NCBI GenBank assembly: GCA_027600665.1
Contig: JADGJL010000516.1
Span: 1-19,261, forward strand
Direction of reading: 5' to 3'
Origin: Irineochytrium annulatum
Taxonomy: Eukaryota > Chytridiomycota > Chytridiomycetes > Chytridiales > Chytridiaceae
DNA: 19,261 nucleotides
In this document: positions 3,127 through 10,302 of the stretch, piece after piece
How the letters are laid out: each line of letters opens with the position of its first letter
Position numbering within the stretch: the stretch's first letter is position 1
The notes under the pieces: model-generated
The model's input: the letters and a program-made list of their open reading frames with translations, nothing else
Told to the model about the DNA's origin: nothing
Databases searched by the model: none
Translations under genes and position numbers: made by a program

Positions 3127-4527
3127 TTACATCTTCGCCTCCCTGACCTCCCCCACCACATAACCCCTCCTCGGAAAATGGACGACCGTCTCCACCCCAT
3201 CCTCACCCTTCCTCCTAACCGCTACCCTGTCCGCCCCAGCCCCCTCAACCAAATTCCCCACAACGGGCCCTTCCTTCCCATAATCGTTGGGGATCACCCT
3301 AACCCTCCTCCCTTCCTGTGCCCCACCGAGCACGCTCCTGGCGCTCCTTGCAACCTCGGTGCACTCGGCATCGGTCATCAACGCGCCTTGCGGCGGTCTC
3401 TTGTCGCCGGGCGCCGCGCCGGTCGCCAGGAGGAGGCGGGCGTACCAGGCGTGGATGTGCGGGTATTGTGCGGCGGTAAAGTGGGGCTTCTCCGTGGGTA
3501 AGGACATGGTAAACCAGACGGGAAGAAGGGCGTGGAGATCGATGTGGGTCGGGGTTGATTGATCTTTTATGGGTTTGATGAGAGTGGTTAGATATTACAC
3601 AGGCGAGAGTATGGAAGAGTGGAATAAGACAAGTGCCCGCAACTGCATCCTCTCGTCCATTCACCCAAGAGTACACTCTCCCCCTCCACCACTACCTCTA
3701 CAAAAGACAACTCACCAAACAGCCAACCCGTCTTCGACTGCGCCAATGACTCCTCCAAACTGGCAAAACCGGAATGGGCTTGCTCCCTCATGTAGGGCCT
3801 GGCGGCCTTGTGCTCCTCGATGGGCCTCGGCTTCGACCTTCCCATCATCCTGTCACGATCGTTCCTAAAGGATTCCGGGACGAGCTCCATGGGGATGAGG
3901 GAAGCCACATTCTATTAGGAGGAATTGAAGGGTTAATAAAAGTTGAGTTAAGCAAAAAACCACAGGCGGGCACGAAAGTAGTTAAACGAAGAAGAAAACG
4001 CGCTTCGCGCGCAAGAACGTCGGGTTTCAGATGACAAATAAAAGAACAATGTGAAAGAATTAGGGCATGTACACACCAAAAACATAAACTTGTCACACCA
4101 CATGGCCGCGGCCTCGGCGCCGAACTTCCCGATCCCACTGCTCGGCACAAGCGACTTCTCGGGCCACCTCCTCTCGATCTCGTCCAGAATCAAGGCCGTG
4201 TCGCAGTAAAAGTCGCACCCGATCTGCATGACGGGGATGCGTCGATACCCGCCCGTGAGCGTCTGAGTAACACGAGGCTGTTGTTGATCGAAAGGTGAGA
4301 AGGTGGACGAGCAGAGGAACCAGAAATGCGTAATTGCGTAAATGGTCTTACCGGAACGTTAGGGACGATGACACTTCGCCATTTGAGGCCCTTGAGTCCG
4401 AGCGCGAAGGTGATCTTCTGCGCGTACGGGCTCGTGTGGTATTGGTGCTGATCCGCAGGCAGAAAGAAGAGTCGGTTTGAAAGTACGGAAGGGAATAAAG
4501 TCTTACGAAGATGATCTCGTCGGCCAT
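3127..4527 (-). CDS. Glutathione S-transferase-like protein with C-terminal extension
   Basis: Five exons on the minus strand, 4527-4507, 4447-4352, 4277-4077, 3911-3716 and 3563-3127, give 951 nt and 316 aa with consistent phases. The first exon is only seven codons (MADEIIF). The N-terminal thioredoxin-like domain (about 1-85) shows HQYHTSPYAQK, where S13-P14 sits at the usual active-site turn, then the cis-proline segment RRIPVMQ (P54) and YCDT (D65-T66) at the glutathione gamma-glutamyl binding position. The helical GST_C-like half follows, with TGWLFDQSTPTHIDLHALL. The last ~60 residues (RVRVIPNDYGKEGP ... VVHFPRRGYVV) look like a small beta domain; from memory, similar tails occur on some fungal GST-like proteins. 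The substrate is unknown and the protein is probably cytosolic. Introns of 165 nt (3912-4076) and 152 nt (3564-3715) are the longest in the window. It lies 482 bp downstream of SUV3 in the same orientation. Confidence 0.85.
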
Positions 4528-4811
4528 GATGGGATCGCGCGTCGTTCGTTCGAGAGGAGAAGGGTGACAGCAGAGAGGTCGTGACGTTTATGAGCTGGCG
4601 CGACGGGCACGGGACAGGAAAGGATGTTCAGCCGAGATCAGAATTAAACCGAGCATGAATTGCATTGCCAGGTTTGACACAAAAGCAAGTGGGAAAAGTG
4701 GGATGAATGTTTACTGCGCGAGCGTCGTTCAAAGGGTAAATCATCGAGCATAAATTCAGGCCAGATAGACGCGTACGCGCAGCTGGCCCTTTGTGTTCTC
4801 GTAAGTGCAAC
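4528..4811. other. Upstream region of the GST-like gene
   Basis: This non-coding stretch lies between the GST-like start codon and the left boundary of the duplicated block. It should contain the GST promoter. It includes the 10-bp palindrome cgcgtacgcg near 4790, which I cannot assign to a function. No third copy of the micro-protein family is visible here. Confidence 0.5.
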
Positions 4812-4851
4812 CAAAAAGGAGAGGTCGAAGGACGGAAGAAGTAACTTTTAT

Positions 4852-4975
4852 GGGAGATGGAAATCATTTGATAAGCTCCTTCCCACGGACCTCCACGCAA
4901 GATAACGGCGTCAGCGCCGACTTATGACTTAAGCCTGCATGAAACGATGGCCGTTGCGGTCAGCGAAAGTCGATT
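4852..4975. other. Conserved non-coding block, copy A
   Basis: This block is strongly preserved in copy B (6174-6295). It contains cggcgtcagcgccg (4906-4919, a potential stem of 5 bp around a 4-nt loop), ttatgacttaag and the 18-mer atggccgttgcggtcagc (4947-4964). I found no reading frame conserved between the two copies, so it is probably not coding. It lies past the 3' end of the minus-strand micro-gene in each unit, so termination or insulation is a possible role, but this is inference. Confidence 0.6.
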
Positions 4976-5026
4976 GACTCAAGCAGTTAATCAAAGGCGT
5001 AGGCTTGCAGACAATGTATAGGCGTG

Positions 5027-5032
5027 TTTATT
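5027..5032 (-). terminator. Poly(A) signal AATAAA for micro-gene A-minus
   Basis: TTTATT on the plus strand reads AATAAA on the minus strand, about 225 nt past the stop of the small gene at 5256-5411. The equivalent signal sits about 200 nt past the stop in the second copy, within a shared context (ggcgt-ttattt). Confidence 0.6.
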
Positions 5033-5255
5033 AATTGTACGATTGCAGGAGAACAAAGAACTTTGAATGATGAAAATCGCCCCGCGGGTTGCGGAGGGCT
5101 GAAGGCCGATGGGGTCGCGGTTGCTTTCTGGGTCTCCCCGCCCGGCTGCGAATTCACAGCCATGGCGCCACGGTGCGTTGAACGTTGAACTTGAACGGCC
5201 AGATCGAATGCCTTGCTCGGTGGTCGGTAAAGGCCAATTAAGCAAAGGCTGATAT

Positions 5256-5411
5256 TCACAGGATCGTGGCGTGGGCCATCGAGGGCCCTCCGAGCATCAC
5301 AGGCGCCCGCTTAATGTGGGCCGGCCTAGTGCCGGCGGGACTGGCGGCGGTGGCAGCGGTGGCGACTGTGTTGACATTGGAGGCCGAGGAGGTGGTCGCG
5401 TTGGCAGGCAT
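5256..5411 (-). CDS. Micro-protein A-minus, 51 aa (KRAPV/HATIL family)
   Basis: The ORF runs from ATG at 5411 to TGA at 5258-5256. The first half is Thr/Ala/Ser/Asn-rich (begins MPANATTSSASN). The conserved half reads RPAHIKRAPVMLGG, then PSMAHATIL at the C-terminus. It is unrecognised as a known family. Evidence that it is coding: the paralogue at 6562-6714 preserves the last 23 residues with nine synonymous and only two non-synonymous codon differences, and two further relatives sit on the opposite strand at 5772 and 7112. A TATA-like CATAAAAGG lies about 88 bp upstream and an AATAAA about 225 nt downstream. There is no hydrophobic signal peptide or membrane segment. The dibasic KR could be a cleavage site or simply a basic patch; function is unknown. 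Confidence 0.82.
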   Translation of the reverse strand: MPANATTSSASNVNTVATAATAASPAGTRPAHIKRAPVMLGGPSMAHATIL

Positions 5412-5494
5412 GTACGATTTCCGAGTTGGGTGAAGAATAGAAGGCGAGTCTGGTGTTGAAGTGCGGGATGGGCCGACATGGACGAGGCGGGGAA

Positions 5495-5503
5495 CCTTTT
5501 ATG
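5495..5503 (-). promoter_or_regulatory. TATA-like box for micro-gene A-minus
   Basis: CATAAAAGG on the minus strand lies about 88 bp upstream of the ATG at 5411. The corresponding CATAAAGG in the second unit lies about 106 bp upstream of its gene. The matching position in both copies and the mirror-image box on the plus strand support a divergent promoter. Confidence 0.6.
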
Positions 5504-5657
5504 AGATCGCGGCAACGGACAGCCTTGCGAGAGACCTCTCTGATGCCCCATGCCGAACGATTGAGCGTGGAAGCCGACACAAGCCGCCGACAGGGCCACC
5601 ATCCATGCCGTTCGGCGGCCTCACGAATCACGACAGCCTCCACGCGCAGTCGCAGCC

Positions 5658-5663
5658 TATAAA
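5658..5663 (+). promoter_or_regulatory. TATA box for micro-gene A-plus
   Basis: TATAAA followed by GAGG lies about 109 bp upstream of the ATG at 5772. The leader between them is C/A/T-rich with few purine runs, typical of well-expressed fungal genes. The paralogous gene has GATAAAAGG at an almost identical distance (about 113 bp). Confidence 0.7.
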
Positions 5664-5771
5664 GAGGGGTTGTTCAGGTCGTTGCGGCACCAGCATCATC
5701 ATCAGCTACCTTCCCGACTCGACGACCTTCACATCTTCCCAAATACCAACCCACCTCGAGTCATCCTGAAG

Positions 5772-5921
5772 ATGCCCGCCGCGAACCAAACCGCCGCCTC
5801 CACGACTCCGTCCGCCTCCACCGCCGCCTCCCCCGCCAACACGGCAATGCACAAGCCCGCACACGTCAAGCGAGCGCCTGTTCTCCTAAGCACCATCGGT
5901 GGTCACGCCACCATCCTTTGA
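5772..5921 (+). CDS. Micro-protein A-plus, 49 aa (KRAPV/HATIL family)
   Basis: The ORF runs from ATG at 5772 to TGA at 5919-5921. It begins MPAANQTAASTT, continues Ala/Ser/Thr/Pro-rich, then carries HKPAHVKRAPV and ends LLSTIGGHATIL. The reading frame is open further upstream without ATG, but only the part from 5772 is matched in the paralogues, which all begin MPA. Its closest relative is the plus-strand gene at 7112. The 22 core codons compared show four synonymous changes plus conservative substitutions (L/F, L/I, I/V, T/A, T/S). A TATA box, short leader and AATAAA make this a complete small transcription unit. There is no signal peptide, transmembrane helix, cysteine or CaaX box. I do not recognise the family; function is unknown. 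Confidence 0.85.
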   Translation: MPAANQTAASTTPSASTAASPANTAMHKPAHVKRAPVLLSTIGGHATIL

Positions 5922-6005
5922 GCTTTGCACGGGAGCGTCTCCAAGACCCGCGAACCGCCCGATTCGAAGCAACTACCATTTAAAGTGCATATCACAACTT
6001 ACCAC

Positions 6006-6011
6006 AATAAA
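6006..6011 (+). terminator. Poly(A) signal AATAAA for micro-gene A-plus
   Basis: AATAAA lies 85 nt past the stop codon at 5921, followed by A/T-rich sequence. The paralogous plus-strand gene has AATAAA 91 nt past its stop. Confidence 0.65.
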
Positions 6012-6173
6012 ACAATATTATACCCACTCACTAGTTGCACGTACTTCTTGTTCGCGTTCCGTTTTTCAAATATCCAATCAATACTCCGGATTTTTGGCAT
6101 TTTCATTGCATGGTTTCGTTTCAGTATGACGGCGAGTTCGGCAAAAAGAGGATGTCGAAGAGCGGAAGGAGCA

Positions 6174-6295
6174 AAGGAAGATAGAAATCATTGATAAGCT
6201 CCCTCCAGCGGACCTCCATGCAAGATTATGGCGTCAGCGCCGTTTATGACTTAAGTTCACATGGAATAATGGCCGTTGCGGTCAGCCAAAGTCTA
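6174..6295. other. Conserved non-coding block, copy B
   Basis: This is the counterpart of 4852-4975. It contains ggcgtcagcgcc (6230-6241), ttatgacttaag and the identical 18-mer at 6269-6286. Here it lies between the convergent 3' ends of micro-gene A-plus (AATAAA at 6006) and micro-gene B-minus (AATAAA at 6362-6357), which fits a terminator or boundary role. No conserved ORF is visible. Confidence 0.6.
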
Positions 6296-6356
6296 ACTTC
6301 GGTGTCAGCAAGTGGCGAGAGCATGTACCGGTAGTTTGCGGACATACATGGGCGTA

Positions 6357-6362
6357 TTTATT
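6357..6362 (-). terminator. Poly(A) signal AATAAA for micro-gene B-minus
   Basis: TTTATT on the plus strand reads AATAAA on the minus strand, about 200 nt past the stop of the small gene at 6562-6714. It matches the position of the signal in unit A. Confidence 0.6.
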
Positions 6363-6561
6363 ATTTGTTTAGAAAACAAAAACTACGAATGATAATATTG
6401 CCCCCGCCAAAGGGCGGAGGAACCTGGGGGTACATTGTTGCGTTCTTGCTCCCTGCTCCGCGCTGCGACTTTACAGCCATGGCGCCCCGGCGTGTTGAAC
6501 GCTGAGCTTAACGCAAAGCCTTGCCTGGTGATCTTAATGTTGGTTTAAGATGGCTTGCATT

Positions 6562-6714
6562 TTACAGGATTGTCGCGTGAGGCATCGCGGGACCGCCGAG
6601 CATGACGGGGGCCCGCTTGATGTGAGCCGGCCTTGAGCTGGCGGAAACTGTGACGGTGGCAGAGGAGGTCGCGGTGGAACTGGAGCTCGAGGAGATGATC
6701 GTGGAGGCAGGCAT
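6562..6714 (-). CDS. Micro-protein B-minus, 50 aa (KRAPV/HATIL family)
   Basis: The ORF runs from ATG at 6714 to TAA at 6564-6562. The N-terminal half is almost entirely Ser/Thr/Ala/Val (begins MPASTIISSSSSS), followed by RPAHIKRAPVMLGG and PAMPHATIL. It is the unit-B counterpart of the gene at 5256-5411. The N-terminal half has drifted while the core and C-terminus are kept, mostly through silent changes. A TATA-like CATAAAGG (6824-6817) and a downstream AATAAA complete the unit. It differs from its sister by S to A and A to P near the C-terminus. There are no cysteines, signal peptide or membrane helix; function is unknown. Confidence 0.82.
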   Translation of the reverse strand: MPASTIISSSSSSTATSSATVTVSASSRPAHIKRAPVMLGGPAMPHATIL

Positions 6715-6816
6715 TTTTGATGATAGAATTGATGAGGAAGCCGGAGTGGGAGAGAATTCAAGGCCGAAGGCGCGTTTGCTATTGAAGTGCTGGTCGGCAA
6801 GGACGAGTTCCTGGCG

Positions 6817-6824
6817 CCTTTATG
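6817..6824 (-). promoter_or_regulatory. TATA-like box for micro-gene B-minus
   Basis: CATAAAGG on the minus strand lies about 106 bp upstream of the ATG at 6714, the same arrangement as in unit A. Confidence 0.55.
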
Positions 6825-6991
6825 GGATCTGCGGCTGGTGTCGTGGTAGGCGGGTGTTGTTCACGGATCGCAGTTGCCCGCAAACGTGGAGTGGAAGTGA
6901 CATTCAAGCCAACAACTTCGACATGGCCACGACCCACGCCGTTCAACAACCTATCCACAACATACATTGGCGTCCACGCGGAACGAAGGCC

Positions 6992-6999
6992 GATAAAAG
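6992..6999 (+). promoter_or_regulatory. TATA-like box for micro-gene B-plus
   Basis: GATAAAAG lies about 113 bp upstream of the ATG at 7112. About 168 bp separate it from the opposing minus-strand box (about 155 bp in unit A), defining a compact bidirectional promoter. Confidence 0.55.
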
Positions 7000-7111
7000 G
7001 ACCTGCCGACGTCGTCGAACACCACCAACATCAAGAAACTACAGATCTCGACTTGGACGTCCTTCAGCTTGACTTCCTTCAAACAACAACCCACCTCCAA
7101 CCTCGACTAAA

Positions 7112-7240
7112 ATGCCCGCCTCAAACCAAATCACTGTCGCCGCCGCCTCACCCTCCCCGGCCGCGATCCAGAAGCCCGCACACGTCAAGCGAGCACCCGT
7201 CTTCATTAGCGCTGTGGGCGGTCACGCCAGCATCATCTGA
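7112..7240 (+). CDS. Micro-protein B-plus, 42 aa (KRAPV/HATIL family)
   Basis: The ORF runs from ATG at 7112 (context aaaATG, favourable) to TGA at 7238-7240. It begins MPASNQITVAAASPSP, has a shorter variable region than its sister at 5772, then QKPAHVKRAPV and FISAVGGHASII. The 23-nt stretch encoding KPAHVKR and the first bases of the next codon is identical to unit A, and changes after it are silent or conservative. The C-terminus ends SII where the other three end TIL. A TATA-like box about 113 bp upstream and AATAAA at 7331 frame the transcript. Family and function are unrecognised. Confidence 0.84.
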   Translation: MPASNQITVAAASPSPAAIQKPAHVKRAPVFISAVGGHASII

Positions 7241-7672
7241 GTGTGCTCAGGAACCTGCGTCGAAAGAACGAGGGCGCTAACGAAGATTGAACTGCAGCGT
7301 ACATGGATATTATGCAGCTGACAACTCATGAATAAATGCATTTTATACCCGTTATACGTGTAAAGCGCGTTCACTTGTTATCGGAGTTATATACCAGCCA
7401 TTGGAAGGCTCACTTTGTTGGAATGGTCTTTGAGAGATGGCGTCGTTACCTACATCGACGCCCACGTCCATCCTGCTGTGAGCTAGGTCTCCTTTTAATA
7501 CTTCATGCAGTAAGCAGACAAGAGGAGCATTACTTTGGCTCGCAGAATATAATTTGCTGCCTAATTGGCTCCGAATTATCCTGTTGTTGACGCGGGGTTC
7601 GAACTTTGACGACGAACCCTTTAGCGGTCCAACCCCCATACCCCGATCAGGGCTGGCCGCTCATTCCCTCTC
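7241..7672. other. Intergenic region: 3' UTR of micro-gene B-plus and promoter of the SDR-glycosyltransferase gene
   Basis: This 432-bp stretch holds an AATAAA about 91 nt past the micro-gene stop. The remainder should be the upstream region of the next plus-strand gene. A ggttcgaa near 7586 resembles a tRNA T-loop, but its flanks do not form a stem. No other feature is supportable. Confidence 0.55.
7331..7336 (+). terminator. Poly(A) signal AATAAA for micro-gene B-plus
   Basis: AATAAA lies 91 nt past the stop at 7240, matching the 85-nt spacing in the sister gene. Confidence 0.65.
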
Positions 7673-10302
7673 ATGGCGATGAAATTCTCCCTCGGCGCCG
7701 GCCACCAAAGTGGCCGCAAGGCCCTTGTGGCCCTCAGCCTCCTGATGATGGCCTATTGGATCTTTATCTCGACTAGGATGACCGTGCTGACGGTCGAGAA
7801 CGAAGTGGAGTCCGTGTCGGATACATCCTGGGAGGCCGTCAACCCGGACGGGAGCGCCGCCAGCGACGGGCACCATGCTGTGGTCGCTGGCGGTGAGAAG
7901 GGGGCAGCCGTGTGGTCGGTCCCGAGGAGAAAGGCCGAGGGCGACCCTTGCGCGAAGGAGGTGCCGGCTGCGGGTAAGGTTGGCCAGGGCCAGCCTGGGA
8001 ACGGATCATTGGTTCTGGTCACGGGCGGCGCGGGGTTCATTGGATCAAATGTTTGTATTCCTAAACCTTATGAAGAAATACGCGTCGCTAACCCACACCC
8101 TGATATTACAGCTAGTAGACCGACTGCTTAGTCTCGGATATCGAGTACGCGTCTTCGATAGCCTCGTGACTGGGTCGATCCGGAACGTGCCGCTGAACCA
8201 CCCCCATGTCGAATTCCGTATGGACGACATAATGGACCCGATGGCCTTGAGCGCCGCCATGGAGGGTGTTGAGTACGTGTATCATATGGCTGCCATGAGC
8301 AAGGTTGCTCCAAGCATGAAGAGCCCCGCAATGGCCAAGTTTTGCACCGAAGTGAACGCTTTGGGTTCTTGGAGTGAGTACACCACGAGGACGCCTTTCG
8401 CGTTACCAATCTTACTGTTTGGCAGATGTCCTTGAGGCTGCGAGGTTGGCCGGCGTCAAAAAGGTGGTGTACGCTGCCTCCTCCACATATTACGGAAACA
8501 ACCCGCCCCCACACACGGAGACTGACGCTGTAAGTAGTGCACGCCAGCAATTCAACAACCTTTCAACTTACTTCTATCATCTGCAGCCGAGCTTCTTGAC
8601 CCCATATGCCGCGTCAAAATATGAGGGCGAAATACAAATGCAGATGTTCAACGACATCTTTACAGTGCCGACAGGTGATAACTCTCTAAATCTGCAACCG
8701 AAGTTGATTCTTGATTTTTCAGTATCCATCCGGTTTTTCATGGTATATGGCCCGCGTCAGCCTAGCACCGGCGCCTACGCCATCGTGACCGGCGTCTTTG
8801 CGCGCCAGGCCGCCCTGAAGCAGCCGTTGACTATAGAGGGTACAGGCGAGCACTCCCGCGACTTCATCCACGTCCAGGACATCGTCGAGTCTCTCATCAT
8901 CGCGCAGCAGGATGAGAAGCTCCGCGGTGAGGTCATCAACGTCGGAACGGGCACCTCCTACACCGTCAAGCAGGTCGCCGACCTGGTCTCGTCCGACCAA
9001 GTCCATATCAAAGCGAGGCCGAACGACCTCGAGGCTACGCTGGCTAACACGTGCAAGATGAAGAGGGTGCTGGGTTATTTGCCAAAAAAAAAGTTTTTGA
9101 AGGAGATGGCGTATATGGCCGAGGCCACGATGAAGGGGAAGATATTTCAGCAGGAGTGGTTGGATGCTCGGCTGAGGATTTCGGCGCCTTGGGTCATGCC
9201 GGCGAGGTGGCCGATGTTCCCGTGGTATGGGAGGCAAAACTCGATCGAGGGCTTGGTAAAGGCCGTGACGGCGTTGGAGGCATCGGGGTTGCAAAATACG
9301 GTGGCGCTGTTTCTTTTGGATAGCACGCATACGAGGTGAGAAGCGTAGGACTTTCCTATCCGCTCATCGTTCTTTACCCCTTAATCCAACTCGTAATTTC
9401 GCAGATTCGCATTGATGAATCACATCTACTCGCTTGTCACGTCAGGCGGTCTATCATCCTTCATCGTCGCCGCCGCGGACAAGTCGGTCGAAGCGTGCCT
9501 GGATATGAATTACCCGTGTTGGAACGTGACTGAACTTAAGCCGTTATCTCAGGGCAATCGGAGGGAGCAGTTAACGCTAGAGCTGCTGAAGCTGGGGGTT
9601 AATGTGCTCGTAGGGGATACGTAAGTCTGATGTATTGAAGCTCACAATAACTGTTTAACTTAGAAATACTGCCTACGTTCGGGAAGCTGCGAGATCGTAC
9701 TCGAACGTTCGGAGCGCAGATATTGTCATCAACAGCGAGGCGCCGGTAATTCGAAGTCGTTGTCGTGGAATGTGATGTTAATGATCTGTCCACATGTACA
9801 GAAAAGCGCATTCCACACAACGAATTTCTTAGCAAAGTCGAACGCGAGGTCCATCGCGCTCTTCGAGTCGGTCGTACGGTCTGTCGGTACCTTCCGTGAG
9901 ATCCTAGCCGACGGGAAGGACAAGCAGTGGAAGCTTGTGGGTTCCGGCTCTACCGGCTCGCATGACGCCGACGTCGCCACCGTTTTTATGAATGCGCACC
10001 CACCGCAAAGCTGCTCAACACCAAAGAGGGTGGGCGACGCCAGGTCGGGCGCGTGCAAGACATCGCTGGCTCTTTACGAGCCATTCTGCCACCAAATCCA
10101 CGACGAGAAAATCCAGGTCGTTTCCGAGGGCGGACTTCACATCACCCTCTGCCCGTGGAATGGGCTGGAGTGTGATGTGCAGCAGAACATCCCGACCGCT
10201 TGGACGCGGTCGGGGGTATACGAGAACCAATTCGAGCCGCCCAGTTGCGACGCGACGGTGATTGAGCTAGAAGGGGCGGGTGTGGAAGGACTGGAGGAAT
10301 GA
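7673..10302 (+). CDS. Membrane-anchored fusion: NDP-sugar epimerase/dehydratase (extended SDR) plus PF03407-like glycosyltransferase
   Basis: Eight exons, 7673-8050, 8112-8373, 8426-8529, 8587-8674, 8723-9335, 9405-9620, 9664-9745 and 9802-10302, give 2244 nt and 747 aa with consistent phases. Residues ~15-33 are a hydrophobic stretch after basic residues, which suggests a type II Golgi/ER anchor. The SDR half (about 112-430) has TGGAGFIG at 117-124, a YAASK catalytic Tyr-Lys pair (Y255, K259), RFFMVYGPRQP, and RDFIHVQDIVE followed by NVGTG, as in UDP-sugar epimerases and decarboxylases. From ~470 the protein resembles nucleotide-diphospho-sugar transferases (LLKLGVNVLVGDTNTAYVR, then ADIVINSE). 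The expected DxD is D553-T554-N555, so the third position is Asn. A likely role is making and transferring a nucleotide sugar in the Golgi; the exact sugar cannot be told. The alternative of two adjacent genes is unlikely, because exon 5 to exon 6 splices in frame with no stop. Confidence 0.87.

Follow-up and report, generated by a model that had tools for sequence, protein, structure and literature searches.

Can reading frames so short that ordinary gene calling may miss them be genuine genes, and what would their products do? The question is raised by a 19,261-nucleotide stretch of Irineochytrium annulatum DNA (contig JADGJL010000516.1, analysed whole and called here the window, or C566), in which an earlier note had described four open reading frames (ORFs) as a four-member micro-protein family in two tandem divergent pairs. 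ORFs A (5256..5411, minus strand, 51 amino acids), B (5772..5921, plus strand, 49 amino acids), C (6562..6714, minus strand, 50 amino acids) and D (7112..7240, plus strand, 42 amino acids) lie where that note had placed them. B is the divergent partner of A, and the pair C-D is a tandem copy of A-B at a spacing of about 1.32 kb, C being the duplicate of A and D that of B. All four proteins follow the plan claimed for them, with an MPA start, a [KR]PAH[VI]KRAPV core and an HA[ST]I[LI] C-terminus, and each contains three Lys or Arg residues and no Asp, Glu or Cys. The family, here termed F1, is however larger than supposed: 11 further F1 ORFs occur on five other contigs of the same genome. We are nearly certain that A to D are genuine micro-protein genes. 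They are part of a selected, multi-copy gene layer of micro-proteins, which has many copies, a signature of selection at the protein level, a divergent layout, and common promoter boxes in many, not all, loci.

An all-against-all BLASTP comparison of 63 ATG-initiated ORFs of 38 to 65 amino acids in the window, made without a low-complexity filter at E <= 1e-3, gave nine similar pairs. Because six of these are the six possible pairings of A to D (E 1e-18 to 2e-6), the likeness among the four exceeds chance. Two of the remaining pairs are unrelated and weak (E 8e-5 and 5e-4). The third joins two minus-strand ORFs lying antisense over B and D (5729-5896 and 7039-7206; E 2e-11), whose mutual similarity mirrors that of the coding strand. 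We rejected these two as genes: of 14 F1 members, 4, 8 and 0 are open in the three antisense frames and, since these frames are not kept open across the family, the pair is best regarded as shadows of B and D.

Using B, C, D, one C738 member and the C621 member as queries, we searched the 26.9-Mb assembly (1082 contigs) and obtained 15 F1 ORFs on six contigs: four each in the window and on C50, two on C252, three on C738, and one each on C551 and C621. Homologues thus extend beyond the duplication in the window, as this check within the same genome indicates, C50 being the only contig that can be counted as a copy of that duplication. Fourteen of the 15 ORFs are intact; the C50 copy of B has an altered end and was excluded from the alignment of the other 14, from which the definition of F1 was drawn. 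All 14 carry the core [RK]P-x-[HA]-[VI]-K-[RQ]-[ASC]-P-V, with the [ASC] residue 15-16 residues from the end, and start with MPA, MPT or MNT; their N-terminal part, rich in Ser, Thr and Ala, differs among members in both sequence and length. Degraded remnants lie opposite a good member on C551 (16391-16477, E 0.039) and on C738 (near 0.4 kb), so that, C621 excepted, each F1 locus is a divergent pair, in some cases with one half broken. Where both halves are readable (six pairs), the start codons are 360-397 bp apart.

A genome-wide pattern built on the core, [VI]KRxPV followed by two hydrophobic-type codons, gave 16 matches against 2 for the reversed control. Fourteen are F1 ORFs and two, both on C799, belong to a second family, F2; read as unspliced frames, none of the 16 falls in a longer protein, with the limit that the pattern misses variant cores (one of the 15 F1 and four of the six F2 ORFs). 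The alternative that A to D are terminal fragments of a larger known gene, which the earlier note had considered, finds no support, as start, core and stop are conserved together and Pfam returns no match.

F2 was reached through the two C799 matches and through an ORF adjoining the F1 gene on C621. It comprises six ORFs of 58-63 amino acids (one each on C621 and C354, two each on C618 and C799), which end in KVK[KR]AP[VI]LILGPGGSxSxGxx, and profile comparison with F1 over the core (hhalign) gives a probability of 90.9 and an E-value of 1.2e-6. Divergently upstream of F2 lies a third family, F3, found once on C621 and twice on C799 with start codons 329-438 bp from those of F2, and as a copy with one internal stop on C618. 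F3 thus has three intact members and one interrupted member, and an F3 gene, whole or as a remnant, accompanies four of the six F2 genes. F3 proteins end in [VI]P[SR]AP[VI]N[IL]GWPSAGGxGxL. A single ORF, F4 (C201:29423-29656, 77 amino acids, or 55 from an inner ATG), has an F3-like tail ending in KKRTRSAPIYLGWPSANGATLL; no micro-protein partner was seen in the 900 bp read at this locus. Genes of F1, F2 and F3 stand together within 2.1 kb at C621:10166-12269, the only fetched locus with all three. In each of 11 chosen representatives of F1 to F4, a [SAC]P[VI] motif starts 15-17 residues before the C-terminus.

The substitution pattern is that of protein-coding sequence. Over the 12-codon F1 core, 91 pairwise comparisons show 244, 145 and 491 differences at codon positions 1, 2 and 3. 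In the core, nonsynonymous divergence (dN) is below synonymous divergence (dS) in 15 of 18 F1 pairs, with dN/dS from 0.04/0.93 to 0.39/0.96 (for example 0.06/1.03 for A and C, 0.04/0.93 for two C738 members and 0.14/0.85 for the C252 pair); these 15 pairs share ancestry and are not independent. Of the other three, the pair formed by B and its C50 copy is without differences, and core dS is saturated in the remaining two. The last 21 codons of F2 have 5, 3 and 14 variable columns at codon positions 1, 2 and 3, and the 48 codons of F3 have 13, 10 and 30, with dN/dS of 0.19/1.22, 0.19/1.43 and 0.07/0.14 in the three F3 pairs. Non-coding or chance ORFs are rejected on the codon-position pattern and dN/dS. 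One might still argue that the frames are spurious or decaying and stay open only through recent duplication, given a duplicated cluster with a 93% identical block on C50, broken copies (the end of B on C50, the partners on C551 and C738, the F3 copy with a stop on C618) and a similar antisense ORF pair. Third-position bias, together with a core dN below dS across old duplicates, makes this explanation barely credible.

How the copies arose can be read in part from their surroundings. BLAST-aligned extents place the first tandem unit at 4812..5922 (segments 4812-5411 and 5712-5922) and the second at 6142..7241 (6142-6714 and 7046-7241). The block matching C50 covers window positions 5254-7298 in inverted order, and a shorter piece extends the match to 7373. 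Apart from its self-match, the left flank (3900-5250) finds just two places, the tandem copy at 6142-6513 and the C50 counterpart of that copy; judged from this flank only, the C50 copy therefore has the look of a dispersed duplicate rather than a second haplotype. Identity between C50 and the window is 96-100% in five interior features, compared with 85.9% and 89.9% in the edge genes A and D, and beside the C50 copy of A the BLAST similarity to the window ends at the stop codon. We infer that the C50 copy may be the product of an older duplication, in which gene conversion has recently homogenised the interior while the edges are still recognisable only in constrained coding sequence. An intergenic block between the convergent 3' ends (4868-4971 and 6191-6293) is 85% identical between the tandem copies, as against 75-76% for the coding sequences, 63% for the adjoining 3' flank and 55% for the promoters. 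No long open frame shared by the two copies of this block was seen, and neither copy folds better than shuffled sequences on either strand (z 0.62, 0.05, -0.83 and 0.23); the four Rfam matches in region 4000-8000 (E 0.59 to 3.2) are each far under the gathering score.

The start codons of A and B are separated by 360 bp (5412..5771) and those of C and D by 397 bp (6715..7111), two regions that we presume to be bidirectional promoters. The earlier note had credited each of the four genes with its own TATA-like box and AATAAA. All were found, but the perfect TATAAA occurs only once, 114 bp upstream of B (5658..5663, plus strand); A has CATAAA at 92 bp (5498..5503, minus), C has CATAAA at 110 bp (6819..6824, minus) and D has GATAAA at 120 bp (6992..6997, plus). 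AATAAA lies downstream of A at 5027..5032 (minus), of B at 6006..6011 (plus), of C at 6357..6362 (minus) and of D at 7331..7336 (plus). In a scan of 11 F1 genes, TATAAA stands 90-114 bp upstream of five, and CATAAA or GATAAA 92-120 bp upstream of a further four; for the tenth the sole candidate is an A-rich TACTAAAAA at 83 bp, which entered the TATA pattern by eye, and the minus-strand gene on C252 has none. AATAAA or ATTAAA follows within 400 bp in seven of the 11.

Many of these loci also have a common box, AACCCT. Five of the nine F1 upstream regions contain three or four copies, and the roughly 500 bp preceding F4 contain two. Six F2/F3 upstream regions contain it, three of them twice. As background, other fetched sequence was cut into 1516 overlapping windows of 390 bp; a single AACCCT occurs in 155 of them and more than one in none. 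Three or four boxes are thus far outside the background and two are outside it, while a single box is not. Promoters of related pairs share ancestry; the C621 locus, in turn, lacks a BLAST match to the other loci yet has three boxes. A second element, AGCTGAGC, follows AACCCT by 14-17 bp in five of six F2 promoters. The idea of a wider regulon was rejected: AACCCT-N10-30-AGCTGAGC is not enriched, with 6 genome matches against 9 for the reversed control, and five of the six are at F2 promoters, which may share ancestry. The heat-shock-like element GAANNTTC was absent from the seven promoters scanned for it.

What might such proteins do? The mechanism that we favour, and hold tentatively at somewhat less than an even chance, is docking of the tail on an abundant partner. 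F1 to F4 share a C-terminal tail of 15-17 residues, starting with [SAC]P[VI]-x-[ILM] and directly preceded by basic residues. The proteins, probably cytosolic and intrinsically disordered, would be made at the high dose that many gene pairs suggest; the tail would dock in a pocket or channel of one abundant, hypothetical partner, the Ser/Thr/Ala-rich N-terminal half serving as a loose linker, and the proteins would act as stoichiometric ligands or inhibitors. AlphaFold2 gives A to D no secondary structure and a mean predicted local distance difference test score of 58.6; by block, residues 31-40, which hold the core, score highest (72).

The low-complexity Ser/Thr/Ala-rich halves and the many copies would also suit micro-proteins with a lineage-specific structural or storage role, in a spore wall or cap for instance, where composition would matter more than docking. 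We consider this possible, though doubtful, for the core is far more conserved than composition alone would need. A secreted peptide (a pheromone, an antimicrobial or signalling peptide) or the precursor of a modified peptide, cut at KR to release the tail as the active product, is also conceivable: the proteins are short and have many copies, most F1 members have a dibasic KR just before the tail, and a product released by cutting would agree with the pattern of variable leader and conserved tail. The Ser/Thr/Ala-rich N-termini, however, show by eye no hydrophobic segment or secretion signal, A to D have no Cys, the dibasic site is not kept at that place in one C738 member (C738p2) and in F3, and no modifying enzyme was recognised among ten neighbouring ORFs scanned, a small part of the neighbourhood. 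We judge such a peptide unlikely. The alternation within KR[SA]P could instead mark stage-specific ligands of a kinase or phosphatase, with KRSP as a phosphorylatable, proline-directed site and KRAP as a pseudo-substrate. The site residue is Ala in seven, Ser in six and Cys in one of the 14 aligned F1 members, as such a scheme might have it, but the conserved hydrophobic, Gly and Pro residues after the site and the constant distance to the C-terminus would be left unexplained, and we think the scheme improbable.

A number of observations weigh against tail docking, or against treating the four families and their control as one system. The micro-proteins are known from DNA sequence alone and their docking partner is hypothetical. 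Beyond the core, AlphaFold2 models the tail without confidence (block scores 59 and 54), from an input of four close sequences only. The last residues vary (IL, II, AL, VL, PL, VI, CL, LL, CR, LR), so that a strictly read C-terminus fits poorly, and F2 and F3 contain acidic residues. By hhalign, F3 matches F1 with a probability of 5.2 and F2 with one of 0.6; the tie of F3 to these families is weak by sequence and is drawn from pairing, the shared C621 locus and the position of the tail. F4 was found with an F3 query at a weak E-value of 0.136. That the F1 sense frame is open in 14 of 14 members is partly by construction, since being an ORF was a condition of membership (for the remaining five frames the open counts are 9, 8, 4, 8 and 0). 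Full-length dN is not below dS in three of 15 F2 pairs, with dN/dS of 0.20/0.19 (C621 and C618m), 0.25/0.19 (C354 and C618m) and 0.05/0.05 (C799a and C799b), which places the constraint on F2 mainly in the tail; the C799 pair has a dS of 0 and a dN of 0.06 even there. Three of the six F2/F3 promoters have a single AACCCT, as do the 155 background windows. Finally, AACCCT is absent from the two promoters of the window and their two C50 copies, and the boxes therefore give no tie of A to D to the regulation of the other members.

If the tail does dock, a ribosome would be a candidate partner. F1 to F4 could be translation-dormancy factors of zoospores, the tail of about 16 residues threading into the exit tunnel or another channel of the ribosome and silencing stored ribosomes until germination, as a convergent counterpart of vertebrate Dap1b. 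We rate this specific proposal as highly speculative and a long shot. The genome encodes a radial-spoke protein (PF04712, best E 9.5e-51) that has no match in 14 well-known control genomes, and flagellated cells are therefore likely; this gene, together with the impression recorded in the earlier note, would point to a zoosporic fungus. For chytrid zoospores, translational inactivity and dormant ribosomes have been described (PMC8887899), although a report on aphelid zoospores has translational activity in its title (PMC11767097). Dap1b is presented as a hibernation factor at the exit tunnel (PMC13345908). Among the features of the proteins, the basic stretch before the tail and the Gly/Pro-rich tail itself would be hints in the same direction, as would the copy number, which suggests a high dose. 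The AACCCT box is in part similar to TTAGGG, the element of Tbf1, which is named as the key regulator of ribosomal protein genes for the majority of fungal species (PMC2834713); this likeness, and the tie to ribosomal protein genes that it would imply, is a hint only. Should the tail bind ribosomes, it would offer a molecular handle on the silent ribosomes of zoospores.

The families were also compared with what is already catalogued. Neighbouring ORFs of the window match a Suv3 helicase, a NAD-dependent epimerase, an aspartyl protease and a Myb/SWIRM-associated protein, which are uninformative on the micro-proteins. Pfam gives zero matches for A to D at E-values up to 10, in agreement with the claim that the family is unrecognised, and none for six of seven other members; the seventh, on C738, matches PF05564 (Dormancy/auxin-associated) at chance level (E 0.19, 12.8 bits against a curated cut-off of 25), and the assignment was rejected. 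In the PDB no chain matches three single members or the F2 profile. The F1 profile has one match, in which RPEHVKRSPV aligns with the N-terminal RPEAIKMAPVIL of a UDP-GlcNAc 2-epimerase (6vlb; E 0.64) over 15 residues; it was dismissed as chance-level, and that protein, unlike the micro-proteins, is a folded 380-residue enzyme. Among viral contigs, one stretch matched the F1 pattern and none was confirmed. The F2 pattern matched 64 stretches there; the two that were confirmed belong to a single kind of long protein, which has KKVKKAPVIV in its interior. The scan of prokaryote genomes gave 23 matching stretches, of which one could be confirmed, its match spanning 12 residues. We take these confirmed matches as coincidences. 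Among the literature matches listed (titles and abstract openings, open-licence literature), none describes such a family. On sequence grounds F1 to F4 are unrecognised, novelty being claimed only against Pfam, the PDB, viral contigs and prokaryote genomes. Searches elsewhere can use their simple signature: genes in divergent pairs whose products end in a C-terminal tail of fixed length, many loci also having AACCCT boxes.

Two known systems bear comparison. DAP/DAPL1 proteins, to which Dap1b belongs, are ribosome dormancy factors, small and disordered, as the present micro-proteins also appear to be, and what characterises them is binding at the ribosome exit tunnel with eIF5A. They carry a stretch of the KPTVFISG type, to which KRSPVFISG in the C551 member is similar. 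Membership in DAP/DAPL1 was nevertheless rejected, the Pfam model PF15228 having no match in the genome at E <= 10, in the seven other members or in the four ORFs of the window; no DAP chain is among the PDB profile matches, the presence of any such chain in that PDB set being unchecked. Because this likeness of the tail is tentative and PF15228 membership failed, ribosome dormancy is offered here as a hypothesis. The second comparison is one of architecture only. Divergent histone-type gene pairs, whose products are unrelated to the micro-proteins, are multi-copy and short and have a common upstream region, and this is the arrangement in which the micro-protein genes are found: multi-copy short divergent genes around one common upstream region.

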